DNA of 43,324 nt from Opitutus sp. GAS368. Lineage in GTDB: Bacteria; Verrucomicrobiota; Verrucomicrobiia; Opitutales; UBA953. Location of the stretch: positions 1-43,324 of the forward strand of contig CAMBGQ010000010.1 of NCBI GenBank assembly GCA_945866215.1, read 5' to 3'. The position numbers and the translations under genes are program-made. Shown piece after piece: positions 16,756 to 22,436 of the stretch. Position 1 is the stretch's first letter. Each line of letters opens with the position of its first letter. The notes beneath the pieces were generated by a model. The model was not told the origin of the DNA and did not search any database. It saw only the letters and a program-made list of their open reading frames with translations.

Positions 16756-17736
16756 ATGTCCACCCCCTCCACCGAACGACCTGCGGACGGCTTCGCCCGA
16801 TCCCTTATCCGATGGTTCGATGCGGACCACATCCCTGAAGGCGCCGAAGCCTTGCGCAACACGCCCAAGAGGGTGGATTGGCCCCGCTCGATTCCTTTCA
16901 TCATCCTCCACCTGCTCTGTTTCGCCGTAATCTGGGTGGGGGCCAGCCCAATCGCCGTCTGGACTGCCGTCGGCATGTACTTCTTCCGGATGTTCGCGAT
17001 CACCGGCTTCCTGCACCGCTACTTCTCGCACAAGACCTACTCCACCTCGCGCGCTTTCCAGTTCGTCATGGCCGTCTGGGCCGCGCTAGCCGTCCAACGC
17101 GGCGCACTCTGGTGGGCCTGCACGCATCGGCATCACCACAAGCATTCCGACGAAGAGGACGACAAGCACTCCCCGGTCGTAGATGGCTTCTGGTGGTCGC
17201 ACATCGGCTGGATCACCGCGAAACGGAACTTCCCGACCGATTACTCGAAGATCTCCGACCTCGCGAAATACCCCGAGCTCGTCTTCCTCAACCGCTTCGA
17301 CGTTCTCATCCCATTACTCGCCGGCGGCCTGCTCTACGGTATCGGCGCCCTACTCGGCGCCTCTGGCTATGACACCAACGGCCCTCAATTACTCGTGTGG
17401 GGTATCATCTCGACCGTCGTGCTCTTCCATGGCACCGGCTGCATCAATTCCCTGGCCCACGTCTTCGGCACCAAGCGCTTTAACACCACTGGCGACGAGT
17501 CCCGCAATTCGCTCATTCTTACGCTGATCACCCTCGGTGAAGGTTGGCATAATAACCACCACCGCTACCAAGCCACGACGAAGCAGGGCTTCTACTGGTG
17601 GGAGTTCGATCCGACCTATTACGGGCTGAAGATCATGTCGTGGATGGGATTAATTTGGGGCCTCAAGGGCGTGCCGGCTTCGATCTACGAGGAGGCGGAA
17701 CGTACCAAGGCGGAGGCCTCCTCTTCGCGTGCGTGA
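16756..17736 (+). CDS. Membrane fatty-acid desaturase (acyl-CoA/acyl-lipid type)
   Basis: A 326-residue integral membrane di-iron desaturase. It has the three histidine boxes: H-R-Y-F-S-H (His87-His92), H-x2-H-H in H-R-H-H-H-K-H (from His124), and W-H-N-N-H-H (His265, 268, 269). The pattern matches the delta-9 acyl-CoA desaturase branch. It introduces a cis double bond in a fatty acyl chain, the substrate for the methylation enzyme encoded downstream at 21225. Hydrophobic stretches flank the boxes. The stop overlaps the GTG of the FAD oxidoreductase by eight bases, which suggests coupled expression. Confidence 0.93.
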   Translation: MSTPSTERPADGFARSLIRWFDADHIPEGAEALRNTPKRVDWPRSIPFIILHLLCFAVIWVGASPIAVWTAVGMYFFRMFAITGFLHRYFSHKTYSTSRAFQFVMAVWAALAVQRGALWWACTHRHHHKHSDEEDDKHSPVVDGFWWSHIGWITAKRNFPTDYSKISDLAKYPELVFLNRFDVLIPLLAGGLLYGIGALLGASGYDTNGPQLLVWGIISTVVLFHGTGCINSLAHVFGTKRFNTTGDESRNSLILTLITLGEGWHNNHHRYQATTKQGFYWWEFDPTYYGLKIMSWMGLIWGLKGVPASIYEEAERTKAEASSSRA

Positions 17737-19006
17737 ACGGATCGCCATCATCGGCTCGGGGGTGAGCGGTCTCGGCTGCCTCCGCTTCCTGCACGCCCAT
17801 CACGAGGTCACGGTCTTCGACCACGATACCCGGCCCGGCGGCCACGCCCACACGATTGACGTCACCGAACCGGGCACCGGGCGCGCCCTGCCGATGGACA
17901 CGGGCTTCATGGTGTTCAACGAAGTGACCTATCCGCACCTCTGCCGACTCTTCAAGGAACTCGGCGTGAAGATCAAACCTACCTCGATGTCCTTCGCGGT
18001 CCGACACGACCCGACCGGGCTCGAATGGTGCGGCAGCTCTCTGAATCACCTCTTCGCCCAACGGCGTAACCTCTTCAGTCTGCGTTTCTGGAAACTCCTA
18101 CTCCAAATCAACAAGTTCAACAAGCTCGCCAAGACCGAGTGGCGATTCGCCGAGGCCGAGACGACCTCGCTCCGCGATTGGTGCGCCCGCAAGGGCTTCG
18201 GCCAGGATTTCCTCAACCTTTATCTGATCCCCATGTCCGCCGCGGTTTGGTCGACGCCGGCGGAGAAGATGCTCGGCTTCCCAGCGGCGGCGCTCATGCG
18301 CTTCTTCCATAACCACGGCTTCCTCGGGCTCGACACCCAACACCAGTGGCTGACGCTCGAAGGCGGCTCACGGACTTACGTCGAGGCGGTGCTTAAGGCT
18401 TACCCGGCCGATTTTCGTTTCGGCCAAGGCGTCACCGCCGTCCGGCGCGCTGGCGACCAGGTCGTGGTGACGACGGCCAAGGGCGAAGAGCGCTTCGACC
18501 GCGTGATCATGGCCTCGCATGCGGACACAACGCTCAAGCTACTGACCGATGCCGACACCGAGGAACGTCGCCTGCTCGGCGCATTCACCTACAATCAGAA
18601 TGTCGCCATCGTGCACACCGACATGGCGCCTCTGCCGCGGACGGCGAAGGCGCGCTCCTCCTGGAACTACCGCACCTGGGCCAAGGACGGCGGCCTCGTC
18701 ACGTCGACACACTATTGGATGAATTCTTTGCAGGGCCTCACGGATAAAGGCGACTTCGTCGTGACGATCAACCACCCCGAACAAGTCGACCCCGCGAAGG
18801 TTATCCGCACCATCCCGACGGAGCATCCGCTCTTCTCGCTCGAGGCTGTCGCGGCTCAGGCCGAGATTCCCGCGCTCAACGCCCGAACCGGAGCGCGCGT
18901 GCATTTCACTGGAGCTTGGCAGCGTTACGGCTTCCACGAGGATGGCTTCTGGTCGGCCCACCGACTCTGCTCGCAGCTCCTCGGCCGCGACGCCTGGGCG
19001 GCCTGA
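17729..19006 (+). CDS. FAD-dependent amine-oxidase-like oxidoreductase
   Basis: A 425-residue flavoprotein. The N-terminal dinucleotide-binding fold is I-A-I-I-G-S-G-V-S-G-L, and an R-P-G-G-H-A-H-T segment follows, typical of the NAD(P)/FAD amine-oxidase group found beside DUF1365 and cyclopropane synthase genes. A T-G-A-W-Q-R-Y-G-F-H-E-D-G segment near the C-terminus is where FAD contacts are expected. The start is GTG at 17729, eight bases inside the desaturase gene. The reaction is not proven; oxidation or modification of unsaturated acyl lipids is inferred from neighbours. No Shine-Dalgarno is visible. Confidence 0.85.
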   Translation: MRERIAIIGSGVSGLGCLRFLHAHHEVTVFDHDTRPGGHAHTIDVTEPGTGRALPMDTGFMVFNEVTYPHLCRLFKELGVKIKPTSMSFAVRHDPTGLEWCGSSLNHLFAQRRNLFSLRFWKLLLQINKFNKLAKTEWRFAEAETTSLRDWCARKGFGQDFLNLYLIPMSAAVWSTPAEKMLGFPAAALMRFFHNHGFLGLDTQHQWLTLEGGSRTYVEAVLKAYPADFRFGQGVTAVRRAGDQVVVTTAKGEERFDRVIMASHADTTLKLLTDADTEERRLLGAFTYNQNVAIVHTDMAPLPRTAKARSSWNYRTWAKDGGLVTSTHYWMNSLQGLTDKGDFVVTINHPEQVDPAKVIRTIPTEHPLFSLEAVAAQAEIPALNARTGARVHFTGAWQRYGFHEDGFWSAHRLCSQLLGRDAWAA

Positions 19007-20296
19007 TCAGTAGGCGATCTTCTGGGTCTGACGCTCAAAGCCTTCGGCCTGGAAGAGAGGCTCCGGGTTCATCTTCACAATATCAGCCACATACCGGTCC
19101 GGTACGCGCTCGAGGCGGGTGTTATAGAACGTCGCGATATTATTGTGATAGGCCCGGGCCAGCGCGATGCGATCCTCGGTCTCGACGAGATTCTTGTGCA
19201 GTTCGTCGAACGACTCCTGCGCCCGAATATCCGGATACTGTTCGACCACGGCGACCAGCATCGGCGCCACGGCGGAAGTCCGGGCGCCAGCGGCCTGTGC
19301 GCGGAGCGCGGCGACCAGCGTCTGCACGGACGCTTCGTGGGCACGGAAGCCCTGCACGCATCCGAGCAGCGAAGGAATCAGGTCGGCGCGGCGCTTGAGC
19401 TGAATGTCGATGAGCGACTGCGCCTGCCGGACGCGATTGCGCAAGCACGTGATACTGTTGAAGACCATCCAGACCCAGCCAGCGCTGGCCGCAACCAGGT
19501 AGAGGCCGAGGCCAATAAATAGGCCGACCGGCGCGACATCGGGACGGGCCCCGGCCGTAAGAAAAGCGCCGAACCCAACGGCGAAGGCAGCTCCGACCAT
19601 ATGCCACACCACGAAAGCGGAGGCCTTGCTGTCGCTGATGTCCTGGGACTTCCCCGGGGTGATGATGAACATCTCCGCCTTGTCCTCGTGCTTGATCTGG
19701 GCGGCGACGATATCGGGCCGCTCGCTGGCACGGCCACGGACGAAGAGCGGCGTGCCCACGACCAGGCCAACCTCGTGGAAGCTGCGTTCGCCAGTTGAGC
19801 CTTCGACCGCATCGGACGGACCTTTTTCGTAATAGAGAGGATCGTCCTCATCGACGTCGCGGTCGAACATCGTCAGCGTCGTGAGATCAGCGCCCTTGGG
19901 GTTGACCCAGACGTAACCGGTGTCGTCCTGGATGTAGAAGCCGGCCGACTTGCCGCCCTCCGCGACCGTATCGCTGCCCATATCGATCACCGTACGCGTG
20001 CGGGTACGGCCCTTATCATCCGTATAGGTCTCCTCCCGCTGACGTCGCCAATGTTCCTCGACGGACCAACTATAAAGTACGCAAGGCTTCTCGGCCAAGT
20101 AGCTCATGAACGGATCGCGCCGGACGCAGACGCCCTCCACCTCGACCTCGCCGATGAAGACTCCGAGGGCTTTTGAGACCGGCGTGTCGTCAAGCAGGCG
20201 ACGCTTACGGCCAGCGTTCAAGGCAAGGAGCAAGCTCCCGCCAGAGGCGAGGAGAGCGATCAGACCAGCTCCAGGGGCATCTTGGGACACGGGCAT
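19007..20296 (-). CDS. GIDE/BAM-domain and LemA-domain fusion membrane protein
   Basis: A 429-residue protein. Order: a transmembrane helix (about 10-27), a GIDE/BAM-type domain as in the mitochondrial E3 ligase MULAN (about 43-220), two transmembrane helices (about 226-249 and 254-279), then a LemA domain to the end. The LemA part shows I-D-I-Q-L-K-R-R-A-D-L-I-P-S-L and A-R-A-Y-H-N-N-I-A-T-F-Y-N-T-R. No RING finger is present; LemA takes its place. The function of bacterial GIDE proteins is unknown, and LemA proteins are poorly understood membrane proteins. It lies between two lipid genes on the opposite strand, ending next to the FAD oxidoreductase stop. The ATG at 20296 fits. Confidence 0.85.
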   Translation of the reverse strand: MPVSQDAPGAGLIALLASGGSLLLALNAGRKRRLLDDTPVSKALGVFIGEVEVEGVCVRRDPFMSYLAEKPCVLYSWSVEEHWRRQREETYTDDKGRTRTRTVIDMGSDTVAEGGKSAGFYIQDDTGYVWVNPKGADLTTLTMFDRDVDEDDPLYYEKGPSDAVEGSTGERSFHEVGLVVGTPLFVRGRASERPDIVAAQIKHEDKAEMFIITPGKSQDISDSKASAFVVWHMVGAAFAVGFGAFLTAGARPDVAPVGLFIGLGLYLVAASAGWVWMVFNSITCLRNRVRQAQSLIDIQLKRRADLIPSLLGCVQGFRAHEASVQTLVAALRAQAAGARTSAVAPMLVAVVEQYPDIRAQESFDELHKNLVETEDRIALARAYHNNIATFYNTRLERVPDRYVADIVKMNPEPLFQAEGFERQTQKIAY

Positions 20297-20380: not shown

Positions 20381-21232
20381 ATGCCCCGACTGTACGACGC
20401 AGAAGTGATGCACGCCCGGCTCTGGCCGAAGCGCCATGATTTCACGCACGCCGCTTTCGCCTGCGCGGTCGAAGCAGAGAAGGTCAACGCCACCCGCGGC
20501 GGACGATGCATGCTCGGCGGCAAGTTCTCACCCTATTGTTTCCGGGACGCAGACTTCCTGCCGGCGGCCGAGGTCTTCCAGCCGGAGGGCGTCACACAGG
20601 ATTTCGGTCAGCCGGGAGATACGCTGGACGGACGCTTTCGCGCCTTCGTGGCAGCTCAAGGAGAACCGCTACCAACCCGCGCCGAGATCACGCTCATCGC
20701 GATGCCCCGGGCGTTCGGTAAATCTTATAACCCGGTGGTGTTCATGATGGCGACCGTGGATGGCGAACTCGCCTGTGGCATTGCCGAAGTCCATAATACT
20801 TTTGGCGAACGCAAGGCCTGGTTCCTCGGTAAGGCCTGCCTGCAGCGCGACCATGACGGCGACACCTACCTGCAGCTGCGCACACCCAAGCGCTTCTACG
20901 TCTCACCGTTCTCGAAGCTCGATACCGAGTTTGAGTTCACGTTACGACTGCCCGACAGTAAGATGGCCTTCACGGTCGACCATCATGAAGACGGACGGAA
21001 AACGCTGACTAGCGCCTGGACTGGCAAGCAAGTGCCCCTGACCGACCTCCGCCTGCTGTGGCTGACAATCAAGTCGCCCCTACTGATCCTCAAGGTCATC
21101 ACGCTGATTCACCTGCACGCCGCTTGGCTTTGGCTGGTGAAGAAACTTCCCTTTCGCCGAAAAGGGGGCGACATTCCCGACCAGCGAAATCTGCGGCACC
21201 CCACCCCTGAACTTACCGGACGACATGACTAA
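20381..21232 (+). CDS. DUF1365-family protein
   Basis: A 283-residue protein starting M-P-R-L-Y-D-A-E-V-M-H-A-R-L-W-P-K-R-H-D-F, the DUF1365 N-terminal signature (usually Y-x-G-x-V-x-H-x-R). The family is almost always next to an FAD oxidoreductase and a cyclopropane synthase homologue, as here, but its activity is unknown. There is no signal peptide; a hydrophobic stretch near residues 230-255 may contact the membrane. The ATG at 20381 was chosen because the signature starts there; the frame is open to 20282. It overlaps the methyltransferase start by eight bases. Confidence 0.85.
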   Translation: MPRLYDAEVMHARLWPKRHDFTHAAFACAVEAEKVNATRGGRCMLGGKFSPYCFRDADFLPAAEVFQPEGVTQDFGQPGDTLDGRFRAFVAAQGEPLPTRAEITLIAMPRAFGKSYNPVVFMMATVDGELACGIAEVHNTFGERKAWFLGKACLQRDHDGDTYLQLRTPKRFYVSPFSKLDTEFEFTLRLPDSKMAFTVDHHEDGRKTLTSAWTGKQVPLTDLRLLWLTIKSPLLILKVITLIHLHAAWLWLVKKLPFRRKGGDIPDQRNLRHPTPELTGRHD

Positions 21233-22436
21233 ACCTTCCCTCGCCCGTCGCCTCGTCCTCGGGGAACTCGCAAAACTCTCCAAGGGGCGCCTCTCCCTCC
21301 GCCTGCCCGAAGGCACGGAGCTCACGCTCGGCGACCCGCAAGCCCAGGCCGGCGCGCGCATCGAGATCTCGGACGAGAACGCCTTCCGCCGGATCATGCT
21401 CGCAGCCGACATCGGCCTCACCGAAGGCTACATGGAAGGCGAATGGGATTCGCCCGACCTCGCAGCGCTCATCGGCTTCTTCATCGAGAATATCGATAAG
21501 ACCCCGGGCATGTCCGGCTCGGCCCGCAAGGCCATCGGCGTCGGCTTGTTCCGTATCGCCGATCGTATCGGGCACCTGCTTCGCCCGAACGACAAGAAGA
21601 CCGTGCGTCGCAATATCTCGGAGCACTACGACGTCTCCAACGACTTCTTCCGCCTCTTCCTGGATCCGTCGATGATGTATTCCTCGGCGCGCTGGGAGGG
21701 CACGGACTCGCTCGAGCAGGCGCAGGCCAATAAGAACGAGTCGCTCTGCCGCTTCCTCCAGCTCAAGCCCACCGACCACGTCATCGAAATCGGTACCGGC
21801 TGGGGTGGTTGGGCTTTGCACGCCGTCAAGAAGTACGGTTGCCGCGTCACCTCGCTCACTATTTCCCAAGCCCAGCACGACCTCGCTGTCGAGCGCATCC
21901 GAGCCGCGGGGCTCGCCGATCGCATCACCGTGAAGCTCGAGGATTTCCGCGACCATCAAGGACTCTACGACAAGTGCGTCTCCATCGAGATGATGGAAGC
22001 CCTCGGCCACAAGTATCTGCCCGCCTTCTGCGCTTCGATTGGCCGTCTGCTCAAGCCCGACGGCATCGCCGCGTTCCAATACATCACCTGCCCGGACAGC
22101 CGTTACGCCCAGTTCCGCGACGGCGTGGACTTCATCCAGAAGCATATCTTCCCCGGCTCGCTCCTCCTCTCGATCAATCGCGTCGGAGACCTCATGACCC
22201 AGGAGAGCGGTTTCCAGCTGGATCGCGTCGAGGAATTCGGCCGCGACTACGCACGCACGCTCGATGCTTGGTGCCAGGCCTTCGAAGCGAACCTGGATAA
22301 GGTGCGCGGCATGGGCTTCGATGAACGCTTCATCCGCAAGTGGCGCCTTTACTTCCGCTACTGCCAGGCCGCCTTCGAACACCGTAACATCGGCGTCGTC
22401 CAGGCCGTGTACGTCCGCCCGAACCGCAAGGGGTGA
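21225..22436 (+). CDS. Cyclopropane-fatty-acyl-phospholipid synthase-type methyltransferase
   Basis: A 403-residue SAM-dependent methyltransferase of the CFA synthase family. The SAM motif V-I-E-I-G-T-G-W-G-G-W is at about 186-196, with T-S-L-T-I-S-x-x-Q and S-I-E-M-M-E-A-L-G-H behind it. An N-terminal E-G-Y-M-E-G-E-W segment is the usual CFA N-domain mark. It uses SAM to modify double bonds in membrane lipid acyl chains, giving cyclopropane, methyl or related products. With the desaturase, FAD oxidoreductase and DUF1365 genes it forms a lipid-modification region. The exact product cannot be told from sequence. It ends before a bidirectional terminator. Confidence 0.92.
   Translation: MTKPSLARRLVLGELAKLSKGRLSLRLPEGTELTLGDPQAQAGARIEISDENAFRRIMLAADIGLTEGYMEGEWDSPDLAALIGFFIENIDKTPGMSGSARKAIGVGLFRIADRIGHLLRPNDKKTVRRNISEHYDVSNDFFRLFLDPSMMYSSARWEGTDSLEQAQANKNESLCRFLQLKPTDHVIEIGTGWGGWALHAVKKYGCRVTSLTISQAQHDLAVERIRAAGLADRITVKLEDFRDHQGLYDKCVSIEMMEALGHKYLPAFCASIGRLLKPDGIAAFQYITCPDSRYAQFRDGVDFIQKHIFPGSLLLSINRVGDLMTQESGFQLDRVEEFGRDYARTLDAWCQAFEANLDKVRGMGFDERFIRKWRLYFRYCQAAFEHRNIGVVQAVYVRPNRKG

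Follow-up and report, generated by a model that had tools for sequence, protein, structure and literature searches.

The BAM/GIDE domain is that of mitochondrial and chloroplast ubiquitin ligases, among them MULAN (also called MAPL or MUL1) and plant SP1, another BAM–RING E3 ligase. MAPL spans its membrane with two helices, so that BAM lies in the intermembrane space while RING and both termini lie in the cytosol; in published trees the prokaryotic BAM domains form a clade apart from the eukaryotic ones, and what conserved function BAM serves in MULAN has been called an open question (PMC4457424). The LemA family is similarly sparse in functional information. When PMC4902198 was written, MamQ was its only member tied to a cellular process: MamQ affects magnetosome membrane formation, has been proposed to act as a hub in the cytoplasmic membrane, and carries conserved acidic and aromatic residues that are essential (PMC4902198). 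Here we describe a bacterial gene whose product joins these two known, poorly understood membrane-protein families in one chain. The fusion architecture is widespread and visible to Pfam, yet we found no description of a GIDE–LemA fusion in the literature searched, the coverage of which did not extend to subscription journals.

A single gene joins a GIDE/BAM domain to a LemA domain

The window analysed here is a stretch of 43,324 nucleotides from an Opitutus sp. GAS368 contig. A single intact ORF of 429 codons on its minus strand fills positions 19007–20296, and the encoded protein is organized as follows.

19007..20296, minus strand: GIDE/BAM–LemA fusion gene, 429 aa, coordinates including the stop codon
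20213..20269, minus strand: TM1, residues ~10–28, followed by GRKRR, a strong positive-inside signal
19649..20182, minus strand: BAM/GIDE domain, residues 39–216, predicted OB-fold-like barrel with a large insert
19583..20032, minus strand: Pfam GIDE match, residues 89–238, from the profile search
19559..19648, minus strand: TM2, model helix at residues 217–246, C-terminal in the BAM unit
19451..19540, minus strand: TM3, residues ~253–282, counterpart of LemA's own N-terminal membrane helix
19016..19420, minus strand: LemA domain, residues 293–427, helical, with an E-x-Y-P motif (E352, Y354, P355)

Membership of a Pfam family is defined by a score over the curated gathering cut-off, and both domains scored above it. 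The N-terminal part, for which the first-pass annotation had named a missing GIDE/BAM profile match as the refuting outcome, matched GIDE (PF12483) over residues 89–238 at 42.1 bits (cut-off 23.6; E 7.9e-11), and the C-terminal part matched LemA (PF04011) over residues 293–427 with 111.6 bits against 26.2 (E 4e-32), in agreement with the domain assignment made in that annotation. Its proposed order of helix, BAM, hairpin and LemA was borne out by membrane-segment peaks at residues ~10–28, 228–246 and 254–272 and by a structure model with a helix at 7–37, an all-beta domain at 49–213, and two further helices at 217–246 and 252–337. The hairpin is a composite, its first helix being part of the BAM unit and its second being LemA's N-terminal helix. 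This membrane helix stands directly before the LemA domain, and the sequence VFNSITCLRNR that follows TM3 matches the canonical LemA sequence YNSLVxLRN.

RING, which had been noted as absent, was indeed not detected: Pfam searches gave no RING match in the fusion protein, and its four cysteines are scattered and form no pairs. Two of 106 fused proteins carried one CxxC motif, and none of the 106 carried two. The protein therefore shows no sign of ubiquitin-ligase chemistry, and the Pfam description of PF12483, 'E3 Ubiquitin ligase', can mislead the annotation of bacterial proteins.

Among known LemA proteins, that of Thermotoga maritima (PDB 2etd; match E 1.4e-18) resembles the fusion in having a full LemA domain and its own N-terminal membrane helix, but it lacks the TM–BAM–TM unit that precedes LemA in the fusion. 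The E-x-Y-P motif was invariant in an alignment of 15 fusions and is also present in 2etd; judged by the spacing, it may be the counterpart of E179 and Y181 of MamQ. MamQ likewise has the LemA domain in common with the fusion. However, the fusion scored 69.3 bits against the MamQ model (NCBIfam NF040966), far below the cut-off of 250 bits, and the neighbours examined included no magnetosome genes.

Three close orthologues of the fusion gene are intact. The codon differences between the gene and these orthologues lie mostly at third positions, with synonymous/non-synonymous counts of 111/64, 126/61 and 124/76, and the fusion gene is therefore under purifying selection. Profile searches of the window's genome detected no GIDE match beyond the fusion gene and two further, ordinary LemA matches. 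Two near-identical canonical lemA genes are found at contig ends in G000 (contigs C12 and C59; L001 and L002), and these are either true copies or an assembly duplicate.

Predicted topology and fold

One membrane helix precedes BAM and two lie between BAM and LemA in 100 of 103 distinct fusions. Across the 103 fusions, the fraction of lysine plus arginine was 0.05 before TM1, 0.40 just after TM1, 0.07 in the TM2–TM3 loop and 0.10 after TM3. By the positive-inside rule this pattern places the N-terminus outside and both BAM and LemA in the cytoplasm. We infer that the two domains share the cytoplasmic side of the membrane and that TM2 and TM3 form a hairpin.

The fold of BAM was examined with predicted structures, for which pLDDT was 82 in the full-length model and 92 in a model of BAM alone. 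VIA-align gave the predicted BAM model a best Z of 9.0, a modest value, with an rmsd of 2.2 over 78 residues. All 50 VIA rows listed were OB-fold proteins as judged by their titles, including replication protein A, anticodon domains of aspartyl-tRNA synthetase and N-terminal domains of MCM. Foldseek searches with the full model and with BAM alone returned nothing under E 0.001, and a PDB sequence search with BAM returned nothing but a chance hit at E 0.57. We read the predicted BAM structure as an OB-like barrel that accommodates an insert of some 100 residues, and a description of BAM as an OB fold was likewise not found in the literature searched, from which subscription journals were again excluded. 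In a comparison of 59 BAM domains, invariance was confined to D95, G98, E146 and G159 of A2.

Distribution and origin of the fusion

A search across bacterial and archaeal genomes yielded 208 relatives. The best 80 of the 208 came from freshwater Opitutae and other Verrucomicrobiota, from Planctomycetota and from Chloroflexota (Dehalococcoidales), and a single record carried a Proteobacteria label. When 177 genomes of the order were searched, each of the seven sampled from the window's genus encoded the full-length fusion, as did members of several other families; it also occurs in other Opitutales, in Planctomycetota and in Dehalococcoidales, and is present in at least three bacterial phyla, Verrucomicrobiota, Planctomycetota and Chloroflexota. 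Surveys with PF12483 revealed GIDE in 11 of 241 genomes of Verrucomicrobiota, 34 of 251 of Chloroflexota and 20 of 246 of Planctomycetota. Caulobacter, the alphaproteobacterial control genome, gave no GIDE match. In an enlarged sample of the window's genus, several small genomes, G903, G913, G917 and G931, were without the fusion. Given this absence and the patchy distribution, the fusion is dispensable. A plasmid search returned matches to the LemA part only and no full-length fusion, and PADLOC gave no match.

The proteins show three architectures: standalone TM–BAM–TM proteins, mostly of 250–330 aa and mostly from Chloroflexota; BAM–LemA fusions, mostly of 420–480 aa; and proteins of 805–1,115 aa in which two GIDE regions are followed by LemA. 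Standalone bacterial GIDE proteins such as those at L140, L141 and L168 have the TM–BAM–TM unit in common with the fusion but end after TM2 and lack LemA. Most standalone TM–BAM–TM chains, of about 250–300 aa, stop right after TM2, and canonical LemA proteins begin with a membrane helix followed by YNSLVxLRNR, the motif that also follows TM3 in the fusions. On these boundaries, the simplest reading of the architecture is that two complete proteins, a TM–BAM–TM protein and a LemA protein, were fused end to end.

In an unrooted tree of BAM domains, 52 fused domains formed one side of a branch with a support of 100/100, versus nine standalone domains. This tree left out long-branch rows, cut-off rows and the multi-GIDE set; in an earlier BAM tree that retained all three, the support for the fused branch was 82. 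The fused-BAM branch is compatible with a single origin of the fusion, as read from an unrooted tree, and the multi-GIDE proteins may represent a second fusion event. A tree of LemA domains gave a less clear picture: it did not hold the fused domains together, and their placements were weakly supported. The proteins with two GIDE regions and LemA are encoded at L190:4286-7633, L191:4321-7530, L192:4482-7667 and L193:6356-8773. The three longest two-GIDE proteins start with a Cys/His-rich stretch (for example YICSKCHRKIPREEIRVHLETSCPG), and in one of these three this stretch matches zf_UBZ below the cut-off (E 9e-4).

GIDE and LemA as possible partners

The two families also occur as separate neighbouring genes. 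In the planctomycete G758 (L186), a standalone GIDE gene is followed by lemA on the same strand at a distance of 15 bp, and both match their Pfam families. At three further loci (L170, L173 and L122), the gene immediately upstream of the fusion gene is a canonical lemA. Proteins that are fused in one lineage and encoded side by side in another usually work together, and a working partnership may thus exist between GIDE and LemA, although the split arrangement is a single case. Together, the fusion and the split two-gene case tie the two families to each other and offer a bacterial system that can be tested. The split genes occupy 237–713 and 729–1484 of L186 on the minus strand. The lemA frame stops at a TAA inside the domain, and LemA-like sequence continues beyond it, so this gene may be truncated or misread.

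Our tentative but plausible reading is that the fusion protein is an adaptor or organiser anchored in the membrane on its cytoplasmic side, acting as proposed for MamQ. The OB-like barrel of BAM would be held against the inner membrane and, going by its fold, could bind a protein or a small ligand, and LemA, to judge from MamQ, the fusion and the split operon, would be a helical scaffold that recruits or organises proteins in a membrane patch. BAM would then grip a partner at the membrane surface while LemA organises the patch. We also consider it possible, with some doubt, that BAM/GIDE and LemA are functional partners in bacteria even where they are encoded by separate genes, BAM being an inner-membrane, cytoplasm-facing OB-fold module scaffolded by LemA. 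If the partnership holds, a BAM module of this kind implies that the original role of BAM was not related to ubiquitin.

Genomic setting and alternative explanations

The fusion gene of the window lies among genes of lipid metabolism, which are all on the opposite strand.

16756..17736, plus strand: fatty-acid desaturase, a neighbour
17729..19006, plus strand: FAD amine-oxidase-like protein, its stop abutting the stop of the fusion gene
20381..21232, plus strand: DUF1365 (UfaO-like) protein, encoded divergently from the fusion gene; start probably ATG at 20381, mechanical ORF from TTG at 20282
21225..22436, plus strand: cyclopropane-fatty-acid-synthase family methyltransferase, a neighbour

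Rhodobacter requires UfaO, a protein with DUF1365, for its furan fatty acids (PMC7380195). Nearly always in the window's genus, the fusion gene has the FAD oxidase gene on one side and the DUF1365 gene on the other, and from this place in a lipid cluster the first-pass annotation had derived a suggestion of function. A part in the surrounding unsaturated, cyclopropane or furan fatty-acid pathway, or a sensor for it, would account for this near-constant slot, and several genomes of the genus (G903, G913, G917 and G927) lack the lipid gene and the fusion alike, although this co-absence may reflect the loss of one block. However, the fusion gene is on the opposite strand, and the surrounding region is syntenic as a whole in the genus. 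The slot is specific to the genus, in that relatives at ~50% identity or less are mostly without these lipid neighbours, and 38 distant fusion loci had no widely shared neighbour family that would hint at a pathway or partner; the commonest neighbours there, by sequence reading, were a BirA-like ligase, a CoaX-like kinase, LeuRS and a sulfatase, at 5–6 loci each. In the sister genus g3, trmO fills the slot exactly (L223:583-1407 and L221:2428-3252), and in G146 and in G931, a member of the window's genus, the gene for the FAD oxidase directly adjoins that for DUF1365, with nothing between them; no fusion was found anywhere in the G146 assembly or in that of G931, which is 82% complete. Neither the lipid operon nor the fusion needs the other, and a role of the protein in the lipid pathway is quite improbable. 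A general association of the fusion with lipid clusters was rejected on the synteny inside and outside the genus.

Other explanations concern the protein itself. It had been described as mirroring MULAN and as possibly ancestral to a stress protein of organelles. One such explanation makes it a bacterial counterpart or ancestor of MULAN with a similar organelle-type stress task. The GIDE domain, above its cut-off in the fusion and lying beside the membrane in both proteins, and the membrane anchoring are indeed common to the two. However, the fusion has no RING, has three predicted helices rather than two, and carries BAM and LemA on what is predicted to be one side of the membrane, whereas the domains of MULAN are on opposite sides (PMC4457424); the resemblance therefore lies in the domain and not in the predicted layout. 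The ancestral claim fares no better, since prokaryotic and eukaryotic BAM domains are separate in the published trees (PMC4457424), the RING-less standalone TM–BAM–TM proteins are closer to MULAN than the fusion is, and the fusion occurs in Verrucomicrobiota, Planctomycetota, Chloroflexota and one record labelled Proteobacteria, with no GIDE match in Caulobacter. We give this relationship almost no credence. An inverse topology, in which the LemA domain is periplasmic and serves envelope maintenance, is unlikely. A magnetosome paper predicts the LemA domain outside the cytoplasm (PMC3905215), and when sppA is mutated in Flavobacterium, lemA rises along with genes of envelope stress (PMC13236525), but the charge bias across 103 fusions speaks against such an orientation, and the same trend, though weaker, in standalone GIDE and canonical LemA proteins also counts against it. 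Binding of RNA or single-stranded DNA at the membrane by the BAM barrel, with LemA as a mere anchor, would agree with the RPA, SSB and anticodon-binding OB folds among the structural neighbours of BAM. However, the OB fold serves many ligands and proteins, the Z scores of BAM are modest, and the invariant residues of the 59 BAM domains are acids and glycines rather than a basic or aromatic patch, which makes this function very unlikely.

The fusion gene is tandemly duplicated in the same slot at L045, L046, L047 and L057, and G128 has a further, diverged copy elsewhere (G128:C3:80699-81994). In one assembly (L073; BGOI01000032.1), the reading frames of three genes, encoding the fusion, the FAD oxidase and DUF1365, are each broken, which resembles sequencing error.
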